Positions 10,096-38,592 of a DNA stretch of 47,001 nucleotides are shown piece by piece. The translations under genes were made by a program, and so were the position numbers. Source of the DNA: Nitrosopumilaceae archaeon AB1(1) (GTDB taxonomy: Archaea > Thermoproteota > Nitrososphaeria > Nitrososphaerales > Nitrosopumilaceae). Numbering within the stretch: position 1 is the first letter of the stretch; each line of letters starts with the position of its first letter. Below the pieces are notes generated by a model. That model ran no database searches. It worked only from the letters and a program-made list of their open reading frames with translations, and was not told the DNA's origin. The DNA lies in assembly GCA_033471095.1 (NCBI GenBank), contig CP136752.1:730937-777937 (forward strand), in the 5' to 3' direction.

Positions 10096-11205
10096 ATGAC
10101 TCTAGTGAAAAAAACCATTAAAGGAAAAGTTTACTACTATTTTCAAGATTCTGTCAAACTTGATGGAGTCTATAAAGTGATCAATACTTGTGTATGCAGG
10201 GCGGATGCATCACAACACAAATTAGCAGAAGAAAAACATTCTGCACTTGCAATTCATTTACCAAAAATTTTCAAATTAATGTCTACTACATGGAAAAATC
10301 AATACAAATTTGATTTTTTTGCAGATTCTACCGATATGGATTATTTGAATAGTAATTTAGTTTTACAATCATTTCTTTTTACACATTTAAAAAAATTACT
10401 TGATCCACAAGAATTAGATGATTTTGAAAAAATATTGTTTGTAAAATATGTATATGGAACCACCGCAATTGAAGGAAATACATTGACAGAGGCTGAAGCA
10501 TCTAAACTACTTGCAAGTAACCTTACTCCAAAGAATAAAACTATAAATGAAATATTTGAAGTTGGAAATTACAATCATATTAAAAAGTATATGAATGAAT
10601 ATTCTGGAAATATTACTGAAAAAATGATTTTACAAATTCATAAACTTTTGATGACTGGAATTTGTGGATATGATGGAAAATTAATCAATGCAGGAGAATA
10701 TAGAACGAGTAGAGCAATACTTTTGGAAATTGAACATACTCCATCTCCGCCAGAAATGATTTCTTCCCAACTAAAACTCCTTGTTGCTGAATATACAAGT
10801 AAATTAAAGGATGGAATTCACCCATTTGAGGCTGCCTCGTATTTCCATCAGAAATTTGAAGAGATTCATCCATTTCAAGATGGTAATGGTAGAGTGGGAA
10901 GAGAATTACTCAATTATATGTTGGTAAAAGAAGGATTTCCACCAATCTATATTACTCCAGAATATCGAACTGAATATCTAAATTCATTAGTTCAAGGAAA
11001 TACTGATAAGTATATTCCATTATTTACTTTTTTGTTAACACGAATGGGTGCAACATTTTCATATTTTTTTACTAAAACTAACCTGTATTCACTTTTCAAA
11101 AATGATAATATGAGAAAAATTATGAACGATATGGTTGGAGAGGAAACATACAAAACAATTTTGGCTGAGTTGGAAGAAACATCAAAGAAAATAAAACTAC
11201 CTTGA
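10096..11205 (+). CDS. Fic-domain AMP-transferase, class II type, copy 1
   Basis: 369 residues. Fic enzymes transfer AMP or similar groups from nucleotides to hydroxyl side chains of target proteins. The catalytic motif HPFQDGNGRVGR starts at residue 258 (HPFx[D/E]GNGRxxR complete). An inhibitory-helix motif TTAIEGN lies at 122-128 and matches (S/T)xxxE(G/N), so this is an N-terminal-inhibited (class II) Fic whose Glu126 would keep the enzyme off until released. The first 60 residues (YYYFQDSVKLDGVYK) form an extra N-terminal domain with no known function. It ends with SKKIKLP and is directly followed by a MITE-like palindrome. Regulation probably runs through the TTAACTAA boxes. Confidence 0.9.
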   Translation: MTLVKKTIKGKVYYYFQDSVKLDGVYKVINTCVCRADASQHKLAEEKHSALAIHLPKIFKLMSTTWKNQYKFDFFADSTDMDYLNSNLVLQSFLFTHLKKLLDPQELDDFEKILFVKYVYGTTAIEGNTLTEAEASKLLASNLTPKNKTINEIFEVGNYNHIKKYMNEYSGNITEKMILQIHKLLMTGICGYDGKLINAGEYRTSRAILLEIEHTPSPPEMISSQLKLLVAEYTSKLKDGIHPFEAASYFHQKFEEIHPFQDGNGRVGRELLNYMLVKEGFPPIYITPEYRTEYLNSLVQGNTDKYIPLFTFLLTRMGATFSYFFTKTNLYSLFKNDNMRKIMNDMVGEETYKTILAELEETSKKIKLP

Positions 11206-13807: not shown

Positions 13808-14896
13808 ATGACTCTAGTGAAAAAAACCATTAAAGGAAAAGTTTACTACTATTTTCAAGATTCTGTCAAACTTGATGGAGTCTATAAAGTGATCAATACT
13901 TGTGTATGCAGGGCGGATGCATCACAACACAAATTAGCAGAAGAAAAACATTCTGCACTTGCAATTCATTTACCAAAAATTTTCAAATTAATGTCTACTA
14001 CATGGAAAGACCAATACAAATTTAATTTTTTTGCAGATTCTATCGATATAGATTTTTATAATAATGTTTTAGCTTTACAATCATTTATTTTTACACATTT
14101 AAAAAAATTACTTGATCCACAAGAATTAGAGGATTTTGAAAAAATATTGTTTATAAAATATGTATATGGAACCACCGCAATTGAAGGAAATACATTGACA
14201 GAGATTGAAGCATCTAGACTACTTGCAAGTAACCTTACTCCGAAGAATAAAACTATAAATGAAATATTTGAAGTTGGAAATTACAATCATATTAAAAAGT
14301 ATATGGATGGATATTCTGGAAATATTACTGAAAAAATGATTTTACAAATTCATAAACTTTTGATGACTGGAATTTGTGGATATGATGGAAAATTAATCAA
14401 TGCAGGAGAATATAGAACGAGTAAAGCAATACTTTTGGGAATTGAATATACTCTACCTCCGCCAGAAATGATTTCTTCCCAACTGAAACTCCTTGTTGCT
14501 GAATATACAAGTAAATTAAAGGATGGAATTCACCCATTTGAAGCTGTCTCATATTTCCATCAGAAATTTGAAGAGATTCATCCATTTCAAGATGGTAATG
14601 GTAGAGTGGGAAGAGAATTACTCAATTATATGTTGATAAAAGAAGGATTTCTGCCAATCTATATTACTCCAGAGAATAGAACTGAATATCTAAATTCATT
14701 AGTTCAAGGAAATACTGGCGAGTATATTCCATTATTTACTTTTTTGTTTACACGAATGGATGCAACATTTTCATATTTTCTTACTAAAACTAGCTTGTAC
14801 TCACTTTTCAAAAATGATAATATGAGAAAAATTATGAGCGATATGATCGGGGAGAAAACATACAAAACAATTTTGGCTGAGTTGGAAGAAACATAG
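13808..14896 (+). CDS. Fic-domain AMP-transferase, class II type, copy 2
   Basis: 362 residues, about 90-95% identical to copy 1 by eye. Both the catalytic HPFQDGNGRVGR and the inhibitory TTAIEGN motifs are intact, so it should be active and self-inhibited. A TCA-to-TAG change removes the last seven residues (SKKIKLP) present in copy 1; this tail is outside the Fic core. Differences cluster around residues 75-90 (SIDIDFYNNVLA against STDMDYLNSNLV), which may alter partner or target recognition. It shares the leader and boxes of copy 1. Confidence 0.9.
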   Translation: MTLVKKTIKGKVYYYFQDSVKLDGVYKVINTCVCRADASQHKLAEEKHSALAIHLPKIFKLMSTTWKDQYKFNFFADSIDIDFYNNVLALQSFIFTHLKKLLDPQELEDFEKILFIKYVYGTTAIEGNTLTEIEASRLLASNLTPKNKTINEIFEVGNYNHIKKYMDGYSGNITEKMILQIHKLLMTGICGYDGKLINAGEYRTSKAILLGIEYTLPPPEMISSQLKLLVAEYTSKLKDGIHPFEAVSYFHQKFEEIHPFQDGNGRVGRELLNYMLIKEGFLPIYITPENRTEYLNSLVQGNTGEYIPLFTFLFTRMDATFSYFLTKTSLYSLFKNDNMRKIMSDMIGEKTYKTILAELEET

Positions 14897-31811: not shown

Positions 31812-31820
31812 AAATATAGC

Positions 31821-31893
31821 GGGTCTAGAGGGATTCGGACCCTCGACAGCCGGCTTAAAAGGCCGGTCCGCTACCTGGCTGCGCTATAGACCC
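31821..31893 (-). tRNA. tRNA-Lys(UUU)
   Basis: The minus strand folds as a cloverleaf: acceptor GGGTCTA/TAGACCC, anticodon arm CCGGC-CTTTTAA-GCCGG with anticodon TTT, T-arm GAGGG-TCCGAAT-CCCTC. The D-arm closes with three good pairs and one poor one. There is no intron and no encoded CCA. The 3' end faces the accessory region, a common integration site. Confidence 0.95.
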
Positions 31894-32046: not shown

Positions 32047-32121
32047 GCCCTTGTAGTATAGCCCGGTCTAGAATTCGGCCCTGTCACGGCTGAGACGCGT
32101 GTTCAAATCCCGCCGAGGGCG
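32047..32121 (+). tRNA. tRNA-Asp(GUC)
   Basis: Acceptor GCCCTTG/CGAGGGC (one wobble pair), anticodon arm CGGCC-CTGTCAC-GGCTG with anticodon GTC and one G-T pair, T-arm GCGTG-TTCAAAT-CCCGC with a T-C mismatch in the stem. G at 32121 is the discriminator and CCA follows at 32122-32124. A TATA-like TTTAAAATAA lies upstream. The weakened T-stem and anticodon stem are unusual. Confidence 0.88.
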
Positions 32122-32207
32122 CCATTATTTTATTAAATTATGATACCAATGATCTTATACACAAACTGATAATCTATATTTTTAAATCCCAATGATTACT
32201 AAATTGT

Positions 32208-37542: not shown

Positions 37543-37592
37543 TTGTTTTTTTCCTTGAAACCTTTATATATAAAAATGCAGATACTATTGCA

Positions 37593-37760
37593 ATGGCTCG
37601 TTCTGCATATCCAGATGTCTTTACTTTGGAGGGTGAAGATTTGAAAAATTTCTTAGAATATGATAAAAGAGAATTATCCACTGAAGAAAAAAATATGTTA
37701 AAGGAAGCGGATGCTTTTTATCAAGAACAGTGCAAGAAAAATGCTGTCGATGAAATATAA
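37593..37760 (+). CDS. Small acidic protein, paralogue of the GNAT partner
   Basis: 55 residues from the ATG at 37593: MARSAYPDVFTLEGEDLKNF, then LEYDKRELSTEEKNMLKEAD. It is nearly identical over 45 residues to the product at 37908. The TATA element (TTTATATATAAAAAT) and leader are duplicated too. No GNAT follows this copy, so it may be a solitary partner or decoy antitoxin. Confidence 0.65.
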   Translation: MARSAYPDVFTLEGEDLKNFLEYDKRELSTEEKNMLKEADAFYQEQCKKNAVDEI

Positions 37761-37907
37761 TAAAATTAATTATTTTTAATACTAGTAATTTGTATTCTAT
37801 TGTTATCTGCTGATATTAACTAGACATACAATTTGTTCTCCCAACTGTCATATTTCAGCTGAGTTCACTTGTAACTATATATATATAAAAATATAGATAC
37901 CATTGTA

Positions 37908-38078
37908 ATGACGTGTTCTGCATATCTAGATATATTTACTTTAGAGGGCGAAGATTTAAAAAATTTCTTAGAATATGATCAAAGAAAATTGTCTGCAAAA
38001 GAAAAGGCTATTCTAAAAGAAGCCGTTGAATTTTATCAAGAGCAGTACAAAAAAAATCTCGTTTATGAATCACAATAA
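37908..38078 (+). CDS. Small acidic protein, putative antitoxin of the GNAT pair
   Basis: 56 residues: SAYLDIFTLEGEDLKNFLEY, then LSAKEKAILKEAVEFYQEQ. Its last 14 bp overlap the start of the GNAT gene, typical of toxin-antitoxin operons. It does not look like the ribbon-helix-helix (DUF1778) antitoxins usually found with GNAT toxins. The leader TATATATATAAAAATA closely resembles that of the upstream paralogue. Confidence 0.62.
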   Translation: MTCSAYLDIFTLEGEDLKNFLEYDQRKLSAKEKAILKEAVEFYQEQYKKNLVYESQ

Positions 38079-38592
38079 AATTGACAAAATTGATTTAAAA
38101 ATTCGGGAATTAAATAATTCTGATAATTTACAATCACTAGATCTTACTGAATCAAATAAATCTAATCCATTATCTGTAAATGATTTTTTTCATTCATCAA
38201 AGGTACAGAATTTTCAGAAAAATAATCTTGCTTCAACATGGGTTGTATATTACAATAATACACTAGTGGGATGTTTCTCTTTATCTATGTCTGTTATACG
38301 AAAAAATGAACTCAATGATTCTGAAATAGTACATGAAGCTGAATATATCAAAACATATCCTGCTATATTATTAGGACAATTTGGCGTCGATAAGAAGTTT
38401 CGCAGTATGGGTATTGGTTCTCATATTATACAATACATTACAGGATTAGCATTAATGATTGGAAAAAAAATTGCGTGTAGATACATTGTATTACAAACTG
38501 ATTTAGATCACATATCTATCTATAATCAATTTAATTTCAAATCTTCGAAAAAATCTAATCAAAGACTCATTTGGATGTATAAAAAATTATAA
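38065..38592 (+). CDS. GNAT acetyltransferase, TacT-like
   Basis: 175 residues from the ATG at 38065, inside the end of the small gene. The pattern is GNAT toxin-like: NPLSVNDFFHSSKVQNF, WVVYYNNTLVGCFSLS, AILLGQFGVDKKFRSMGIGS (acetyl-CoA loop RxxGxG/A) and a final IYNQFNFKSS. TacT/AtaT-type toxins acetylate aminoacyl-tRNA; this role is inferred from the order of genes and the fold. Confidence 0.75.
   Translation: MNHNKIDKIDLKIRELNNSDNLQSLDLTESNKSNPLSVNDFFHSSKVQNFQKNNLASTWVVYYNNTLVGCFSLSMSVIRKNELNDSEIVHEAEYIKTYPAILLGQFGVDKKFRSMGIGSHIIQYITGLALMIGKKIACRYIVLQTDLDHISIYNQFNFKSSKKSNQRLIWMYKKL

Follow-up and report, generated by a model that had tools for sequence, protein, structure and literature searches.

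A short antitoxin candidate without a ribbon-helix-helix domain, paired with TacT/AtaT-like GNATs in ammonia-oxidising archaea

Does a GNAT gene in an ammonia-oxidising archaeon, overlapped by a small gene of no described family, form part of a toxin-antitoxin (TA) module, and what kind of antitoxin would the small gene then encode? GNAT toxins with ribbon-helix-helix (RHH) antitoxins are a well-studied bacterial TA family. In the 47,001-nt stretch of Nitrosopumilaceae archaeon AB1(1) analysed here (assembly GCA_033471095.1, contig CP136752.1, positions 730,937 to 777,937; hereafter the window), the gene small2 (37908–38078, + strand, 56 aa) precedes a GNAT gene (38065–38592, + strand, 175 aa) and overlaps it by exactly 14 nt, bearing out the overlap pointed out in an earlier reading of the DNA (the sequence-only reading). 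The window is part of a 1.455-Mb single-contig genome of an ammonia-oxidising-archaeon lineage, with relatives among Nitrosopumilus, Nitrosarchaeum, Candidatus (Ca.) Nitrosotalea and Nitrososphaera records. We consider it probable that small2 and the GNAT form a type II-like GNAT TA module with a 'headless' antitoxin, made of the neutralising segment alone, in which small2 is the predicted antitoxin and the GNAT a predicted tRNA-acetylating toxin.

The GNAT is TacT/AtaT-like by sequence and predicted fold, and keeps both the catalytic tyrosine and the acetyl-CoA motif. It matches Pfam Acetyltransf_7 and Acetyltransf_1 above the cut-off, and a profile of seven GNATs compared with the PDB finds AtaT2, TacT, AtaT and KacT first (E 1e-17 to 1e-7), with other GNATs following from 1e-5. 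A fold search with the predicted GNAT structure returns AtaT2, AtaT, TacT, GmvT and KacT-type toxins in its top 30 matches. The acetyl-CoA motif R113-S-M-G-I-G118 is present, and the conserved Y153 aligns with Y139 of AtaT2, replacement of which abolishes toxicity (PMC7470980). The toxin-like character proposed in the sequence-only reading is thus supported, the closest relatives by sequence profile and predicted fold being proven TA toxins. Acting as its family does, the free enzyme would acetylate the alpha-amino group of aminoacyl-tRNA and stall translation, with translational arrest setting in when the antitoxin runs short.

The small proteins, by comparison, matched no Pfam, NCBIfam or PADLOC family and no RHH model, the DUF1778 model PF08681 being absent, which agrees with the earlier statement that the partner is not of the RHH type. 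Among 121 genomes of the order Nitrososphaerales, not one has a DUF1778 match above the cut-off. Searches of the small protein against PDB sequences and PDB folds gave chance-level matches only, and two candidate assignments, RnlA-toxin_DBD (4 members, best E 0.001) and CarD_C, were likewise judged to be chance. The family to which small2 belongs, class A, spans 45–57 aa, with invariant columns L12 and Y43 and nearly invariant Y23 and E32. More distant archaeal GNATs of the same order have a second small partner, class B, characterised by the pattern 'MALRxVxPLxxxQWxxLxxxL..GPTxEQ'. The profiles of the two classes show a clear relationship (hhalign P 6e-6, matched by 0 of 200 column-shuffled decoys), which at the level of sequence points to homology.

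Both classes also resemble part of a known antitoxin. Against a profile of 12 bacterial DUF1778-type antitoxins that adjoin TacT-like GNATs on plasmids, class A scores 18.5 (0/200 decoys), class B 15.7 (1/200 decoys) and the combined A+B profile 19.8 (0/200 decoys, best decoy 12.7). All three match the same place, the start of the toxin-binding C-terminal segment, and against the RHH half of DUF1778 class A scores 6.4, at decoy level. Taken as profile evidence, this makes it likely that the small family is homologous to the toxin-binding tail of the DUF1778 (TacA/AtaR) antitoxins. The suggestion of a new antitoxin family therefore stands in that the small proteins belong to no described family and are tied to GNATs; the part that needs refining is novelty in the stricter sense, since a kinship with known antitoxins is probable.

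For several bacterial GNAT toxins, the solved structure includes no more of the antitoxin than its C-terminus (PDB 6gtq, 6gtr, 7ak8, 7ak9 and 9ils), and a peptide of this kind can therefore suffice for binding. For a model of the archaeal pair, we made use of a locus (L136) in which the two genes lie in frame with one TAG between them; reading the TAG as Q yields a tethered chain of natural sequence. This is a modelling device, and there is no sign that the organism carrying L136 reads through TAG. Given an alignment restricted to window and genome-contig proteins, the read-through chain reached a mean predicted local distance difference test score (pLDDT) of 89 and a predicted template modelling score (pTM) of 0.85, with 94–96 for pLDDT in the antitoxin core, and in this model the small protein is placed confidently on the GNAT. 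Its antitoxin part contains a strand at residues 6–9 followed by two helices. When the window small protein was modelled alone, the helices were kept and the strand region was coil; a strand formed only beside the toxin fits docking onto the GNAT. The median isoelectric points (pI) of the two partners are 5.1 for the small proteins and 9.2 for the GNATs. The partner of 45–57 aa would thus amount essentially to a C-terminal neutralising segment of the TacA/AtaR type, an N-terminal strand and two helices, that may bind the GNAT directly, as modelled, and neutralise it by covering it.

The sequence-only reading had also asked whether the small family might be found mostly away from GNAT genes. 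This is not so. A profile of six homologues, searched against 400 Nitrososphaerales genomes at E<=1e-3, finds the family in 34 of them, with several copies in one genome (G298). At 27 of the 37 places found, the small gene is directly followed on the same strand by an intact-looking GNAT gene, with a gap of -47 to +92 nt; the remainder comprise three with a broken or partial GNAT, two tandem extra copies before a complete pair, one at a contig end and four with no GNAT, so that a GNAT operon holds 32 of the 36 assessable small genes. Five weak matches (L044, L045, L047, L065, L066) were excluded, lying inside longer frames or not being real small open reading frames (ORFs). In the reverse direction, every intact GNAT of the clade with upstream sequence is preceded by an ORF of 45–59 aa. 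A scan of genome contigs from a collection of named genomes, some of them shared with the 400-genome search, finds the small gene at 11 of 12 GNAT loci, the twelfth of which starts at the contig edge. These loci include Ca. Nitrosotalea, Nitrosarchaeum, Nitrososphaera and Lokiarchaeota, and with one of the twelve in Lokiarchaeota, the pair crosses phyla. No relative of the GNAT was found on viral contigs, and none of the small protein on plasmids.

Divergence of the two partners is correlated (Mantel r 0.84 between the distance matrices, 0 of 5000 permutations), which fits a unit travelling together, and shared descent alone would contribute to such a correlation. Loss, by contrast, is lopsided: small genes persist without a GNAT or with a broken one (L024, L036, L040, L051, L052), with four solo small genes and three with a broken or partial GNAT, against no intact clade GNAT with upstream sequence that lacks a small ORF. 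In another family of the phylum, two loci (L061 and L062, in G463 and G628) contain a class A-like small gene, 'MCLEATRVQPQHIPTLENEDAKKFIKQDKKPLSKAQIEHLKHCLEIYNKNPIK', with no GNAT neighbour. In Ca. Nitrosotalea devanaterra (locus L002 in G007), a 70-aa ORF at 1022–1234 with an RHH-like sequence, 'KDKPILLRLPEHYVIALDEIVRQSKGKYKSRNELATEIIGIFLSDLK', precedes a small-GNAT pair by about 250 nt, and could be a separate regulator or a chance ORF.

Upstream of the pair in the window stands a second small gene, small1 (37593–37760, + strand, 55 aa, ATG start at 37593), an extra copy of the predicted antitoxin gene. The order small1, small2, GNAT, all on the + strand, follows a gene that we take to be that for the replication-factor-C large subunit, a name given from its sequence without a search. 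A synteny comparison around DoxX showed that the neighbouring genes are not conserved in relatives. The two small genes share 71% identity, and the ~35 nt 5' of each ATG are near-identical when aligned, including TATATATAAAAAT and AGATAC, so the second copy with a common promoter that had been described at this locus is real. Within this region, small1 has a TATA box, TTTATATA, at 37563–37570 (+ strand), 30 nt 5' of the ATG, at a position kept in the family; a homologous TATA-like element of the small2-GNAT operon lies at 37876–37889 (+ strand). The differences between the copies are mostly synonymous (non-synonymous divergence dN 0.16, synonymous divergence dS 0.98), and both are therefore genuine, constrained coding sequences; judged by these rates, the upstream copy is under purifying selection. 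Overlapping the end of small1, at 37750–37779 (+ strand), is a relic of a GNAT start (MKYNKI..., against MNHNKI of the true GNAT start; 15 of 18 nt identical), indicating that the extra copy arose by a duplication that extended into the toxin gene.

The upstream copy was thus correctly recognised, but it is not unique. At least three loci carry tandem antitoxin genes before a GNAT: that of the window, one in G292 and, for class B, one in G009. In G292 (L056, contig C47, 2042–2457), the GNAT is preceded, as in the window, by a tandem pair of class A small genes with one TATA box each, and in G009 (L016, contig C56, 626–1406) three tandem class B small antitoxin-like genes precede one GNAT.

Across the family, 23 of 39 members have a TATA-like box 28–38 nt 5' of the small-gene start, where shuffled upstream sequences average 3.6, and from this spacing the mRNAs are predicted to be leaderless. 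TTG or GTG is the start codon of many of the GNATs. Expression would probably be set by the TATA promoter with its leaderless start for the antitoxin, joined in many relatives by a weak toxin start codon, TTG or GTG. As the small protein contains no recognisable DNA-binding domain, one would not expect the operon to be under auto-repression of the classical RHH kind. In the window, small1 would act as a second antitoxin gene with its own promoter, raising the antitoxin dose.

How these pairs relate to the bacterial modules was approached with an unrooted tree of 71 GNATs. The 13 bacterial toxins of the DUF1778-partnered type form one clade (100/100) with no archaeal sequence inside. This clade branches together with archaeal GNATs of class B, and those of class A are placed to either side. 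With the tree unrooted, the data are compatible both with archaea having lost the RHH domain and with bacteria having gained it. One might go further and propose that the antitoxins of the entire TacT-like GNAT family began as the RHH-less peptide, which archaea would have retained as the neutralising segment alone, that bacterial DUF1778 is an RHH domain joined to it, and that archaea set the dose by tandem amplification of antitoxin genes instead of auto-repression; we hold this broader scheme to be rather doubtful.

Several points weigh against a TA module with a headless antitoxin. The modelled contact comes from a tethered read-through chain, made without a scrambled control. Four small genes have no GNAT, and a few small proteins are basic, with a pI of up to 10.1. 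The match to DUF1778 is short (17–24 columns) with an hhalign probability of 3–38%, resting on decoy counts and the position of the match, and homology to the DUF1778 C-terminal segment is for this reason no more than likely; unrelated peptides converging on the same toxin surface would produce a comparable match. Finally, class A GNATs fall outside the DUF1778-associated clade in the tree, and for GNATs outside that clade PMC9177977 leaves room for other functions.

This last point also favours an explanation in which the GNAT is a non-toxic acetyltransferase of a protein, peptide or small molecule and the small protein its obligate stabilising or regulatory subunit, the two making up an enzyme complex and no addiction module; tight linkage and modelled contact would fit any obligate complex. 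We regard this as unlikely, since the nearest solved relatives of the GNAT are all TA toxins, small genes outlive the GNAT and not the reverse, and a patchy distribution across the genomes, with several copies in one of them, is typical of TA modules. The two predicted helices could in principle form a small helix-turn-helix, and the small protein might then be a DNA-binding repressor of an unrecognised type, which would make it an antitoxin of the ordinary two-function design. It matches no DNA-binding family, however, a fold search of its model was empty, the small proteins are mostly acidic (median net charge -3), and the profile matches DUF1778 in its toxin-binding half and not in the RHH half, all of which renders such a role highly improbable. 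That the small protein is instead the acetylation substrate of the GNAT, at its N-terminus or a lysine, would suit the adjacent genes and the physical contact in the pair model, but is hardly credible for a protein whose N-terminus varies in length and sequence and which has no invariant lysine; the invariant L12 and Y43, with Y23 and E32 nearly so, form a binding pattern rather than a modification pattern.

Read as a TA module with a headless antitoxin, the archaeal pair can be compared with TacA-TacT, AtaR-AtaT and KacA-KacT, with which it shares the toxin fold, the catalytic residues and a gene order of antitoxin first on the same strand with overlapping or adjacent genes; the small protein weakly matches the C-terminal neutralising segment of their antitoxins. 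The archaeal pair differs in that the archaeal antitoxin has 45–57 aa, against their 88–104 aa, and no RHH domain, and in that the archaeal toxins form separate lineages. PaaA2 of the paaR2-paaA2-parE2 system is a short antitoxin without a DNA-binding domain, whose toxin is ParE and which has a separate regulator gene, PaaR2. The archaeal small protein is likewise short and without a recognisable DNA-binding domain; its toxin is a GNAT, and no regulator gene is seen adjoining the pair in the window.

Closest in the literature is a 2022 study (PMC9177977), the available portions of which describe GNATs outside a 'true TA clade' in DUF1778-free, TA-like bicistronic loci with short divergent ORFs lacking a DNA-binding domain, and leave undecided whether these ORFs are antitoxins. 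The archaeal loci share this arrangement, a GNAT outside the true TA clade preceded by a short ORF without a DNA-binding domain; in those portions of the study, the ORFs receive neither a family definition nor an explanation, and no example from archaea is described. The same portions present VcaA-VcaT (DUF4065-GNAT), where a GNAT toxin also has a replaced, non-RHH antitoxin (PMC9177977), but DUF4065 is another domain and the archaeal pair has no DUF4065 match. A 2009 TA survey (PMC2701414) lists RHH and Xre proteins as partners of GNATs, with no mention of Nitrosopumilus or Cenarchaeum, and our literature search found no paper combining Thaumarchaeota, toxin-antitoxin and GNAT. The general idea was thus anticipated in PMC9177977, while, as far as could be checked, novelty lies in the family, its archaeal range, the link with the neutralising segment and the presence of tandem copies.

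Elsewhere in the window, the stretch 8517–31630 is low in GC content (27–29% over most of its length, against 34–39% outside) and has the look of a defence island. It contains two Fic genes flanking a TPR gene with a weak HEPN match, together with GAP1-N2, KAP NTPase, AbiEi-like, GmrSD and Dam-type methyltransferase genes, and ends beside genes for tRNA-Lys (31819–31893) and tRNA-Asp (32047–32124). The two Fic/DOC genes (10096–11205, 369 aa, and 13808–14896, 362 aa) both have the Fic domain at residues 173–276, and are apparently a second duplication in the window.

If the headless-antitoxin reading of small2-GNAT is true, tRNA-acetylating toxins would extend to ammonia-oxidising and Asgard archaea, and the neutralising segment alone could be a complete antitoxin. 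The short ORFs before GNAT genes outside the known clade would then be accounted for, and the origin of two-domain antitoxins, by fusion or by loss, would become testable.
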